In this document: positions 12,122 through 15,501 of the stretch, piece after piece
How the letters are laid out: each line of letters opens with the position of its first letter
Position numbering within the stretch: the stretch's first letter is position 1
Origin: Bacillota bacterium
GTDB lineage: Bacteria; Bacillota; Desulfitobacteriia; Desulfitobacteriales; JAJXUE01
Direction of reading: 5' to 3'
Length of the DNA stretch: 49,000 nt
Assembly: GCA_021783135.1 (NCBI GenBank)
Contig: JAJXUE010000019.1
Coordinates: 1 to 49,000, forward strand
Made by a program: the position numbers and the translations under genes
The notes under the pieces: generated by a model
Database searches by the model: none
The model's input: only the letters and a program-made list of their open reading frames with translations
Told to the model about the DNA's origin: nothing

Positions 12122-12823
12122 TTAGTTTGGTGGCGATTTATGGCGCAGGCTGAGAAGCTTGCGCCATAGCCATTTACCAGGCAATTTTTCTTGGATTTTA
12201 TCTACTTCCGGTAGAGTGACATGGGGGCTTCCGGGTTTAAGAATATAGGAGTAGCCGGTGACCATCGCCTGCAGATTAGCCATGTTCTCTGTGAACGCGA
12301 GATAGATGTGTAACGGTACAGTGAGAGTGAGCGCGAAGGCTCCGAATAAGGTAATCCAGGCTAGATGATGTACCCCGCCCAGCACGCGGGCAAACGGTAA
12401 AAAGTAGCTTTCCTTGTACGCTAAGGCGCCGGAAATGTTGGCTAGGGACAGGACAATGTACCAGCCGGTATAAAATAGGCGTTGGCCGGCATTATACTTG
12501 CGTACTGGAGGTTTATCCGCACGCAAAAACAGGTAGTATTGGAATAATGCCGCCAGTTCGGTAAAGTCTTGCCAGGTAAAAACTATACTTTGGTAATCTT
12601 GGTGAACCCAGGCGTAGTAAGCGCGGCTCATCAGTAAGTAGCTGAGGAGGAACCCACAAAAGACATGTACTGTGAACATGTGGCCAAAGTTAATTTGGAC
12701 AAAGGACAAGGGGTGATGGATGTACCACCCGGTTGGAACTATTATGCCGATTAATAAGACCAGGACCCAATGATAAATGCGCAGGTACGTTGAATTGCGC
12801 CGTGTCAGGTGGTACAAGGTCAA
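12122..12823 (-). CDS. Cytochrome b subunit of a membrane-bound [NiFe] hydrogenase
   Basis: 233 residues with four membrane helices. Candidate haem-ligand His residues are in YHWVLVLLIG, GHMFTVHVFCG and GGVHHLAW / LHIYLAF. This is the HyaC/HupC-type di-haem cytochrome b that takes electrons from the hydrogenase small subunit and passes them to quinone in the membrane. It begins 7 bases after the stop of the large-subunit gene and is the last gene of the three-gene hydrogenase unit. The C-terminal 30 residues are a basic cytoplasmic tail. Confidence 0.88.
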   Translation of the reverse strand: MTLYHLTRRNSTYLRIYHWVLVLLIGIIVPTGWYIHHPLSFVQINFGHMFTVHVFCGFLLSYLLMSRAYYAWVHQDYQSIVFTWQDFTELAALFQYYLFLRADKPPVRKYNAGQRLFYTGWYIVLSLANISGALAYKESYFLPFARVLGGVHHLAWITLFGAFALTLTVPLHIYLAFTENMANLQAMVTGYSYILKPGSPHVTLPEVDKIQEKLPGKWLWRKLLSLRHKSPPN

Positions 12824-12830
12824 TACCCTC

Positions 12831-14231
12831 CTAGCAAATGCGGTGTTGAGTGACAGTGCCGTCCGATTCTATCAGATGGGCCGAACAGGAAAAACAGGGG
12901 TCATAGGAACGCACAATCCGGCCTATTTCAGTATAGTCCTGCTTGTCCCCGACCACAGTCCCGACGATGGATTGATCGACCGGACCACGGTTGCCGGCTG
13001 CGTCAGGCGGTGAGAAGAGCCAGGCTGTAGGGGTAATAATTTGATAAGCAGCGATTTTTTTATCTACAATGCTTACCCAATGCCCCAACGTGCCCCGCAT
13101 GGCCTCGCTAAGACCTATGCCGGTGCCGGTGGCGCAGATTTCAAATGGGGTGTAGGTCATCTGACCGGGAACTAACTGTTGTAACCATTCCTGCATCCAG
13201 GTTGCAATTTTTTGGGTCTCAAGCACCCTGGCCACAATCCTGTCCATAACCGAGCTCCCATTGCGATATTCGCCACTAATCCATTGCCGTCCCAGTGGTC
13301 CCATTTCCACCGCTAGGTTGGCATAGCGGGGAGCCTTGAGCCACGTATATGCTCCGGCTTTTTGTTTGTCCGGTTTACTTGTGGCGGATGTAGGCTTTGC
13401 TTGGGTGGGACCACTGAACCAACTGTGGGAAATATCTTCAGTGATTAAGGCTGGGTCGAAAGGGTGCAAGGCGCCATTAAGCCAAACACCAGGGGGATAG
13501 TGGCATGTGGCATGATCTAGTTGCGGAAACATGCCGCAGGAAATAAAGTTGCCGGTGCTGCGGCCTATTGCAAAGTAGTCGTTATAGCGTTTGGCAAGTA
13601 GTTCAACGTCCGGCAGCATATAGTTATTAATGAAATCAAGGATCTGTTGGAGGATACCACGAAAACGGTTGTTGCGGTCGGCGTCCGGCGGCATTGAGGT
13701 GCCACCCACGATAATACCGTGTTGGTGCGGGGCTTTACCGCCGTAAATTGCCAGAAGGTGATGTGCGAGACGACTCATCTCTGCTCCCTGCCAAAAATTC
13801 TGCACGAATCGGGCATTTTCACTTGGACTCAGACGTCTGTCATAGGTGGTTCGCGGGGCAAACGGCGCTAGTGCCGGCGAGATAAAATAATCGGGCAGAC
13901 ACAATTGGTAAAATTGACGTAGGTGGTTCTGCAGTACGTCGGCCCCGAAAATAAGGTTGCGCAGCAGGATGGCATTAGGGGTGAGCGGAATTTTGCAGGC
14001 GTCCTCCACTGCTAGTGTTGCTGCGATGCCATGCGCAGTGGAGCAAATGCCACAGATGCGTTGAGTTAGATAAGCCGCATCCCTAGGGTCTCGCCCCTCT
14101 AACATTAACTCAAAGCCGCGAAACAAAGTGCCGCTGGAACGGCAGCCTTTAACAGTTTTGTCGCTAAAATCAATCTCCAATTTTAAAGGCTGGTGAATTC
14201 GTGTCAAGGGTAAGATTACCTGAGTTTCCAA
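12831..14231 (-). CDS. [NiFe] hydrogenase large subunit (group 1, uptake type)
   Basis: About 466 residues. It has both Ni-binding motifs: RICGICSTAH near the N-terminus (RxCGxCxxxH) and DPCFSCSAH at the C-terminus (DPCxxCxxH). The DPCxxCxxH motif is followed by a 14-residue tail that a maturation endopeptidase would remove after the His. The two Cys pairs hold the Ni-Fe(CN)2CO site that splits H2. I chose TTG at 14231 (AAGGAG 11 bases upstream); a GTG at 14243 lies directly against that ribosome site. It follows the small-subunit gene by about 27 bases. No endopeptidase gene is adjacent, which is unusual for a hydrogenase operon. Confidence 0.92.
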   Translation of the reverse strand: METQVILPLTRIHQPLKLEIDFSDKTVKGCRSSGTLFRGFELMLEGRDPRDAAYLTQRICGICSTAHGIAATLAVEDACKIPLTPNAILLRNLIFGADVLQNHLRQFYQLCLPDYFISPALAPFAPRTTYDRRLSPSENARFVQNFWQGAEMSRLAHHLLAIYGGKAPHQHGIIVGGTSMPPDADRNNRFRGILQQILDFINNYMLPDVELLAKRYNDYFAIGRSTGNFISCGMFPQLDHATCHYPPGVWLNGALHPFDPALITEDISHSWFSGPTQAKPTSATSKPDKQKAGAYTWLKAPRYANLAVEMGPLGRQWISGEYRNGSSVMDRIVARVLETQKIATWMQEWLQQLVPGQMTYTPFEICATGTGIGLSEAMRGTLGHWVSIVDKKIAAYQIITPTAWLFSPPDAAGNRGPVDQSIVGTVVGDKQDYTEIGRIVRSYDPCFSCSAHLIESDGTVTQHRIC

Positions 14232-14258
14232 GTTGGCAAACACTCCTTTAGTGTTAGG

Positions 14259-15401
14259 TTATGGTCGTAAGCTGCGTCGCACGCGAGACGGTCTCTTTTT
14301 ATGTCGTCGGACAGTTTCCTCCGGCGCTTGAATGCTTTGTTGTTGAGCCAGTGAACGCGGTGCCGGGGGGTTAAGTGGCAGGGTGGTTTCGACCAAATTC
14401 TTGCGCAGACGTCGACTTAACACATTAGCCCCCAGATGCACTCCGATACCACCGAGGCTGGCGACGCCAATCCCTAAGGCAGCCGTGTCCATTGAAGTAG
14501 TAAAACCGGGGAGCTTGACGTCAGGATAGCGCTGAAAAAAGGGCATGGCGACCTCGGGAAACCCCGGCTCAACACAACCGATGCAGGGTGTGTTGCACCC
14601 TACGGGCCAGTTATCTGTATTGTTCCATTCTCGGTTCGGGCAGTCCGCATAGGTGCGCGGCCCACGGCAACCTACTGCATACATACACCAAGGTTCACCT
14701 GGGTGCTGCGCAAAGATCCCATGCTCGAAATAGGTGCGCCTTTGGCATTGGTCGTGGATCAACCGGCCGTAAAATAGTTTTGGCCGGTTATATGTATCAA
14801 GCTCCGGTATCCCGTAGTTGATTAAGTGGTAAAGCGTACCGATAAACCAGTCCGGGTGACAGGGACAACCGGGGGTATTAATTACAAGGCGATCAAGCAC
14901 TGCCTGTACTCCGACGGAGTGTGAGGGATTGGGCTTAGTTGCGGAGGGGCCGCCAAAGGAGGCGCAGGTTCCGATGGCGACAATGTGTTTGGCTTGGGAG
15001 GCTAGTTCGTGCAATAAATTTACGCCGGTTAGCAGTGCACCGTCGCTATAGCCGGCATAATCCCAAGTACCACCGTCCGCAAGCATTACGGAGCCTTCTA
15101 CTACCAGGATGAATTCACCGCTGTTTTCCTGCGCTGTGCGGCGCAACACCGATAAGGCCCGCTCACCTTCCACATTCATAAGCAGCCAATGATAGCGTAA
15201 ATCGATGACATTATGCAACAAGTCCTTTAGGTTAGGGCTGAGCGAGTTGTCAAGCGAGATGCTGTCACCCGTGCAGGAACCTAGTTCAACCCATAGTACT
15301 ATGGGGCGCTTGGTCGTCTGCGCCGCAATGCCGGAGTGCAGGTCCAACAGCAATACTTCAGCCAAGCTGACGCTAAGAGCTGACTTTACACACAAATCCA
15401 A
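14259..15401 (-). CDS. [NiFe] hydrogenase small subunit with altered proximal-cluster ligands
   Basis: About 380 residues from TTG 15401. Fe-S ligands by position: proximal C43, D46 (usually Cys), C146 (GTCASFGG) and C179 in PGCPCHPDW, with an extra C181; distal H216, C219, C239, C245; medial C254, C273, C276. The CTGD motif replaces CxGC. A membrane anchor (about 305-327) is followed by a basic tail of about 50 residues. Upstream of 15401 the same frame reads FTRRRFLDLCVKSALSVSLAE, a twin-arginine signal, so translation must begin before 15411. The only in-frame codons there are non-standard (ATA at 15420-15422 after AGGTGGTGG). The true start is unresolved. Confidence 0.9.
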   Translation of the reverse strand: MDLCVKSALSVSLAEVLLLDLHSGIAAQTTKRPIVLWVELGSCTGDSISLDNSLSPNLKDLLHNVIDLRYHWLLMNVEGERALSVLRRTAQENSGEFILVVEGSVMLADGGTWDYAGYSDGALLTGVNLLHELASQAKHIVAIGTCASFGGPSATKPNPSHSVGVQAVLDRLVINTPGCPCHPDWFIGTLYHLINYGIPELDTYNRPKLFYGRLIHDQCQRRTYFEHGIFAQHPGEPWCMYAVGCRGPRTYADCPNREWNNTDNWPVGCNTPCIGCVEPGFPEVAMPFFQRYPDVKLPGFTTSMDTAALGIGVASLGGIGVHLGANVLSRRLRKNLVETTLPLNPPAPRSLAQQQSIQAPEETVRRHKKRPSRVRRSLRP

Positions 15402-15501
15402 AAAACGACGCCTGGTAAATATGCTGCACCACCACCTGAAAAAAGTTCATTGCTTAGTTATGCACGAGAAACGGGATAATTATGAATCGAGCCTAATTCC
15501 T

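Follow-up and report, generated by a model that had tools for sequence, protein, structure and literature searches.

Aspartate in place of a proximal-cluster cysteine in a Bacillota group 1 [NiFe] hydrogenase, within a clade where this residue switches among Asp, Asn, and Glu

Introduction

The proximal cluster of [NiFe] hydrogenases is the first acceptor of electrons from the [NiFe] site, and it helps to set catalytic bias and the response to oxygen. Replacement of one of its cysteine ligands has been described in several groups. Aspartate at a proximal ligand position is known for group 1h (PMC6813726), for which the structure of HofK from Cupriavidus necator has been solved (5AA5). The parts of Mohammadi et al. 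that deal with proximal ligands (PMC5364354) give Asn or Asp at the fourth position in group 1f and Asn in group 2a, and state that others, groups 1b and 1g, have three-Cys proximal sites. FrhG of the F420-reducing hydrogenase carries Asp60 in place of one proximal Cys (PMC3591093). Huc, a hydrogenase whose three clusters were assigned as [3Fe-4S] partly on the basis of the fourth coordinating residues, offers a precedent for an upshift in potential (PMC10017518). As for physiology, related membrane-bound hydrogenases with a cytochrome b feed the quinone chain in Sporomusa, where quinone-linked H2 oxidation was proposed for the HupSLC type (PMC9430772).

Here we analyze a hydrogenase operon found in a stretch of 49,000 nucleotides from a Bacillota bacterium (the window). 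A sequence-only reading had pointed to an Asp replacing a proximal Cys in the small subunit and to an extra Cys beside another ligand, had called this pairing unusual, and had suggested that oxygen handling or redox potential may be tuned.

Results

Three genes on the same strand of the window follow each other in the order small subunit, large subunit, cytochrome b (Table 1). Profile searches matched the small subunit to TIGR00391 at 237.9 bits (cut-off, 179.5) and to PF14720 and PF01058, both above their cut-offs. The protein, in which the Oxidored_q6 and NiFe_hyd_SSU_C domains occur together, is the small subunit of a group 1 [NiFe] hydrogenase. A fold search confirmed the small-subunit fold, with [NiFeSe] structures (1CC1 and 4KL8) as the closest solved folds, and an AlphaFold model built with 25 sequences had a mean pLDDT of 65, falling below 50 at residues 44 to 54, i.e., at the site. 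The Ni-binding motifs of the large subunit are intact (L1, RICGICSTAH, with CxxC; L2, DPCFSCSAH, with DPCxxCxxH). L2 is encoded by Cys codons with no in-frame TGA, and an assignment to the [NiFeSe] hydrogenases was rejected, since the DPCxxC motif has Cys and not Sec. The cytochrome b matched PF01292 at 81.1 bits (cut-off, 30.1) and TIGR02125 at 80.6 bits, below the cut-off of 121.5 for the latter.

Table 1. Positions in the window of the hydrogenase genes and of the residues and start-site elements of the small subunit
Feature	Position	Strand	Remark
[NiFe] hydrogenase small subunit ORF, TTG start	14259..15401	-	380 aa
[NiFe] hydrogenase large subunit with C-terminal extension	12831..14243	-	Family profile scores, intact Ni ligands
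b-type cytochrome subunit (PF01292), membrane anchor and quinone-side partner	12122..12823	-	
Probable true start, ATA	15420..15422	-	N-terminus alignment; G002 (sister genome) has ATG
AGGTGG, nine bases upstream of ATA	15437-15432	-	
Arg-Arg-Arg of twin-arginine motif TRRRFLDLC, upstream of TTG	15405..15413	-	
Cys43, proximal cluster ligand	15273..15275	-	
Asp46 (GAC), replacing usual proximal Cys ligand	15264..15266	-	
Cys146, proximal cluster ligand	14964..14966	-	
Cys179, proximal cluster ligand	14865..14867	-	
Cys181, extra thiol replacing usual Pro/Ala	14859..14861	-	
Pro266, at the fourth medial Cys of CTGC outgroup clades	14604..14606	-	Predicts [3Fe-4S] medial cluster
Cys269 (NWPVGCNTPC), additional extra Cys near medial cluster	14595..14597	-	

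The minus-strand codons bear out the two motifs reported from the sequence alone: TGC ACG GGT GAC unambiguously encodes C43-T44-G45-D46, and GGT TGT CCC TGT CAC CCG GAC TGG, equally unambiguous, encodes G178-C179-P180-C181-H-P-D-W. Also as reported, the medial and distal ligands are all present (H216, C219, C239, and C245; C254, C273, and C276), along with C146 and C179. The CTGD motif differs from the ECTCC of HoxK and HyaA, and membership in group 1d (O2 tolerant, with a six-Cys [4Fe-3S] cluster) was rejected.

The gene boundaries proposed earlier hold for the coordinates and the motifs, whereas the N terminus probably lies further upstream. The reading frame stays open for 15 more codons 5' of the TTG at 15401, and the upstream T-R-R-R-F-L-D-L-C aligns with the Tat motif of a sister genome (G002), MLTRRKFLSLC, the N-terminal codons being ATA TTT ACC AGG CGT CGT TTT in the window versus ATG TTA ACC AGG CGG AAA TTC in G002. 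This alignment suggests that translation probably begins at the rare ATA codon at 15422. A start at TTG would remove the twin arginines, and the export signal would be lost. ATA is a weak start codon that leaves both export and expression level uncertain, so Tat export is putative; the cluster motifs are identical whichever start applies.

The same small subunit was found in two genomes of the sister genus. One of them, G002, has the complete operon beside priA, arranged as in the window. Between the window and this sister, dN was ∼0.26 for the small and large subunits and ∼0.28 for priA (dS was saturated or unreliable, and dN was used alone). The match between the hydrogenase and priA values indicates that the enzyme is maintained, with the conservation of a housekeeping protein. 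The assembly that contains the window comprises 2.71 Mb in 67 contigs, and the largest family of the order includes a genus that matches the Desulfosporosinus loci of the collection of named genomes. A second group 1 hydrogenase operon of canonical type, with its own cytochrome b, lies on another contig (G000:C57:27750-31500; L132:5750-9460); its small subunit has a CAGC motif and an RR signal. The sole HycI-type protease found in the genome sits beside this canonical hydrogenase and presumably also processes the large subunit of the window.

Residue 46 was compared across 185 distinct small subunits, drawn from genomes of the order and the class, 398 genomes of the phylum, a collection of named genomes, and reference records. 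Duplicates with the same protein sequence were discarded ahead of the counts. Because the raw numbers still include near-identical proteins, the tree-based figures are safer, and certain genomes contributed loci through both the genome searches and the named collection. Cys46 was present in 77 of the 185 sequences, while 104 distinct Bacillota sequences had Asp, Asn, or Glu, all but seven of them with Cys43 kept; Ala, Gly, and Ser were found at position 46 in none of the 185. When the motif columns were removed from the alignment, the representatives of the Asp, Asn, and Glu sequences formed one clade (72 rows, one of them a fragment from which position 46 is absent; SH-aLRT 98), and this clade was also recovered, with a support of 100/99, in a careful tree of the first sample. 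No named group 1b or 1f small subunit was among the sequences of the tree. Inside the clade, residue 46 changed at least 15 times, with no reversion to Cys, and even the family of the window is mixed, with Asp46 in the window and Asn46 in both genomes of the sister genus.

Asp46 is thus not special to this enzyme but usual for a large clade of Bacillota, and comparable replacements have been published for groups 1f, 1h, and 2a and for Frh. Because Asp is the state found most often in the clade, chance can be dismissed, as can the sequencing error at codon 46 that was raised as a possibility with the original observation. It had also been proposed that a pattern shared by most close relatives would not be novel; this is the case for CTGD, which is common to the Desulfosporosinus branch, but not for GCPC.

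Cys181 was found in 15 of the 185 small subunits, 11 times with Asn46, three times with Asp46 (in the window, L155, and L156), and once with Cys46 (L112). CTGD and GCPC therefore coincide in 3/185 sequences, and Cys181 with Asp46 is an uncommon local variant; GCPC itself is common to the window and the sister genus. Among representatives of the clade, Cys181 was more frequent in rows with Asn46 (10/27) than in those with Asp or Glu (2/38; Fisher P = 0.002), but the association was not significant once phylogeny was controlled, with about one informative pair out of seven, which is too few. The pairing noticed at the outset is uncommon, as claimed. Pro181 occurred exclusively with Cys46 (53/77 versus 0/106), and group 1h, which also bears Asp, has Val or Ile at 181; positions 46 and 181 therefore seem structurally linked. 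Cys181 itself is probably an accessory thiol beside the cluster and not an essential ligand.

The PGCPxHPDW block of the window is shared with [NiFeSe] small subunits and with group 1 clades of the CTGC/GCPP-HPDW type from Bacillota, Chloroflexota, and Nitrospirota. CTGC clades, from Bacillota and Chloroflexota, neighbor the Asp/Asn/Glu clade in the tree as its nearest outgroup. These clades, like the [NiFeSe] enzymes, have Cys at 46, in most cases Pro at 181, and at 266 a fourth medial Cys (NWC), in contrast to Asp46, Cys181, and Pro266 in the window. Pro266 (NWP) was present in nearly all rows with Asp, Asn, or Glu at 46. In D. gigas-type enzymes the NWP state goes with a [3Fe-4S] medial cluster, and Pro266, standing where the CTGC outgroup has its fourth medial Cys, predicts the same cluster type here. 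L159 and L170, the first-branching pair of the clade, have Asp or Asn at 46 yet retain Cys266, which points to a loss of ligands in two steps, the proximal Cys probably going first and the medial Cys second, the latter close to the base of the clade. Near this site, Cys269 is common to Desulfosporosinus-type relatives (∼36 rows with Asp or Asn).

One branch departs from the CxG[C/D/N] pattern and has DSGDNN instead (L129, L130, L205, L206 [positions 995-1975, + strand], L208, L210, and L212). A gap-free reading places Ser at 43 and Asn at 46, so that of the usual proximal ligands just Cys146 and Cys179 remain. In L206, the operon nevertheless encodes an intact large subunit, a maturation protease, HypA, and HypB. 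All seven sequences of the branch keep a Cys in an FxxLC stretch near the N terminus. Elsewhere, the small-subunit matches in G109, G298, G321, G367, and G052 contain in-frame TAG and/or TGA codons within the matched stretch.

In the alignment, Asp46 and the Asp of HofK share a column, as the sequence-only reading had anticipated in citing the actinobacterial-type hydrogenase, and both proteins are without the Pro that follows GCP, which is a small hydrophobic residue (Val or Ile) in group 1h and Cys181 in the window. The motif is CDGD in HofK and Streptomyces and CTGD in the window; group 1h (L113 and L116) has a four-Cys medial site with Cys at 266; and the gene neighbors of HofK encode NifU-family and DUF5947 proteins, whereas the window has a cytochrome b. 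The motif, the medial site, and the operon all speak against membership in group 1h, which was rejected, but the tree allows common ancestry: HofK stood on a separate long branch in the best trees, and AU tests of joining it with the clade of the window gave P values of 0.39 and 0.47, so that the union is not rejected. FrhG resembles the window in its Asp but belongs to group 3, with a ferredoxin-type C-terminal domain in place of the group 1 domain PF14720. Groups 1f and 2a share the change from Cys to Asn or Asp at the fourth ligand; together with 1b and 1g they are from phyla other than that of the window in what Mohammadi et al. present on these ligands, which does not report GCPC (PMC5364354). 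The Sporomusa HupSLC type has the same composition as the operon of the window, with a Tat-exported small subunit (putatively so in the window), a large subunit, and a cytochrome b (PMC9430772).

Discussion

We consider it fairly probable that the operon encodes a group 1 uptake [NiFe] hydrogenase that is exported by the Tat route and linked to cytochrome b, with a proximal cluster of raised potential held by three Cys and a carboxylate. The three genes, from a member of the Desulfosporosinus order, would specify a cytochrome-b-anchored and putatively Tat-exported enzyme that oxidizes H2 in the periplasm, splitting it at the intact [NiFe] site. Electrons would pass from the proximal to the medial and distal clusters, then to the cytochrome b and most likely to menaquinone. 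In the proximal [4Fe-4S] cluster, Cys43, Cys146, and Cys179 would each bind an iron and the fourth iron would most likely sit on the carboxylate of Asp46, as in HofK; the medial cluster is predicted to be [3Fe-4S], with Pro266 and no fourth Cys, and the distal cluster would have His/3Cys ligation. Each of the two ligand changes is expected to shift its cluster to a higher potential, which for the first two clusters of the relay should favor H2 oxidation. In this respect, the earlier idea of a tuned redox potential is plausible. The accompanying idea of tuned oxygen handling found no support. Named relatives such as Desulfosporosinus and Desulfitobacterium are strict anaerobes, and residue 46 drifts among Asp, Asn, and Glu in their clade.

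The same drift bears on whether residue 46 is a ligand at all. Since the sister genus and many relatives have Asn, it need not be, and the proximal cluster could be a three-Cys [3Fe-4S] cluster like those of Huc, or a [4Fe-4S] cluster with an open or water-bound iron, with Asp, Asn, or Glu filling the gap. The repeated interchange of the three residues, the Huc precedent, and the DSGDNN branch, which has dispensed with Cys43 as well and still has a normal large subunit and maturation genes, fit such a site. The restriction to these residues, with Ala, Gly, and Ser missing, suggests instead selection for a polar and possibly coordinating side chain, and at the same place in HofK it is established that Asp accompanies a [4Fe-4S] cluster (5AA5); on this evidence we find a noncoordinating residue 46 rather unlikely. 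A broader proposal, which we advance tentatively and hold to be somewhat less doubtful, is that the N-terminal half of the proximal site has become dispensable in the clade, which gave up Cys46, then exchanged Cys266 for Pro, and in one branch lost Cys43, while Cys181 stood in intermittently as a replacement thiol; the result may be a new type of ligation or a [3Fe-4S] cluster, with a potential that is still evolving.

Cys181 might alternatively have taken over as the fourth thiolate in the family of the window, freeing residue 46 to become Asp or Asn. Its concentration in Asn46 rows and the confinement of Pro181 to Cys46 sequences make the two positions look coupled, but with the association fading under phylogenetic control, Ala or Val occupying position 181 in many Asn46 rows, and Cys occupying both positions in L112, such an exchange of ligands appears improbable. 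We regard as very improbable that the gene has begun to decay, its start having turned from ATG to ATA with loss of export, and that Asp46 and Cys181 carry no functional meaning. The ATG of the sister at the Tat signal does correspond to ATA here, and the first in-frame TTG does drop the twin arginines; against this, frameshifts and stops are absent, all other ligands are intact, dN is alike for both subunits and priA, and the sister genus has GCPC too. A carboxylate-ligated proximal cluster remains the reading that we favor.

The drift of residue 46 among anaerobes argues against taking Asp at this position as a mark of oxygen tolerance. With its repeated switching among Asp, Asn, and Glu, this anaerobic clade amounts to a natural mutagenesis series for the role of the fourth ligand. 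The free switching and the stepwise loss of ligands make these enzymes worth biochemical attention, and the greatest interest lies in the clade as such and in its DSGDNN branch.
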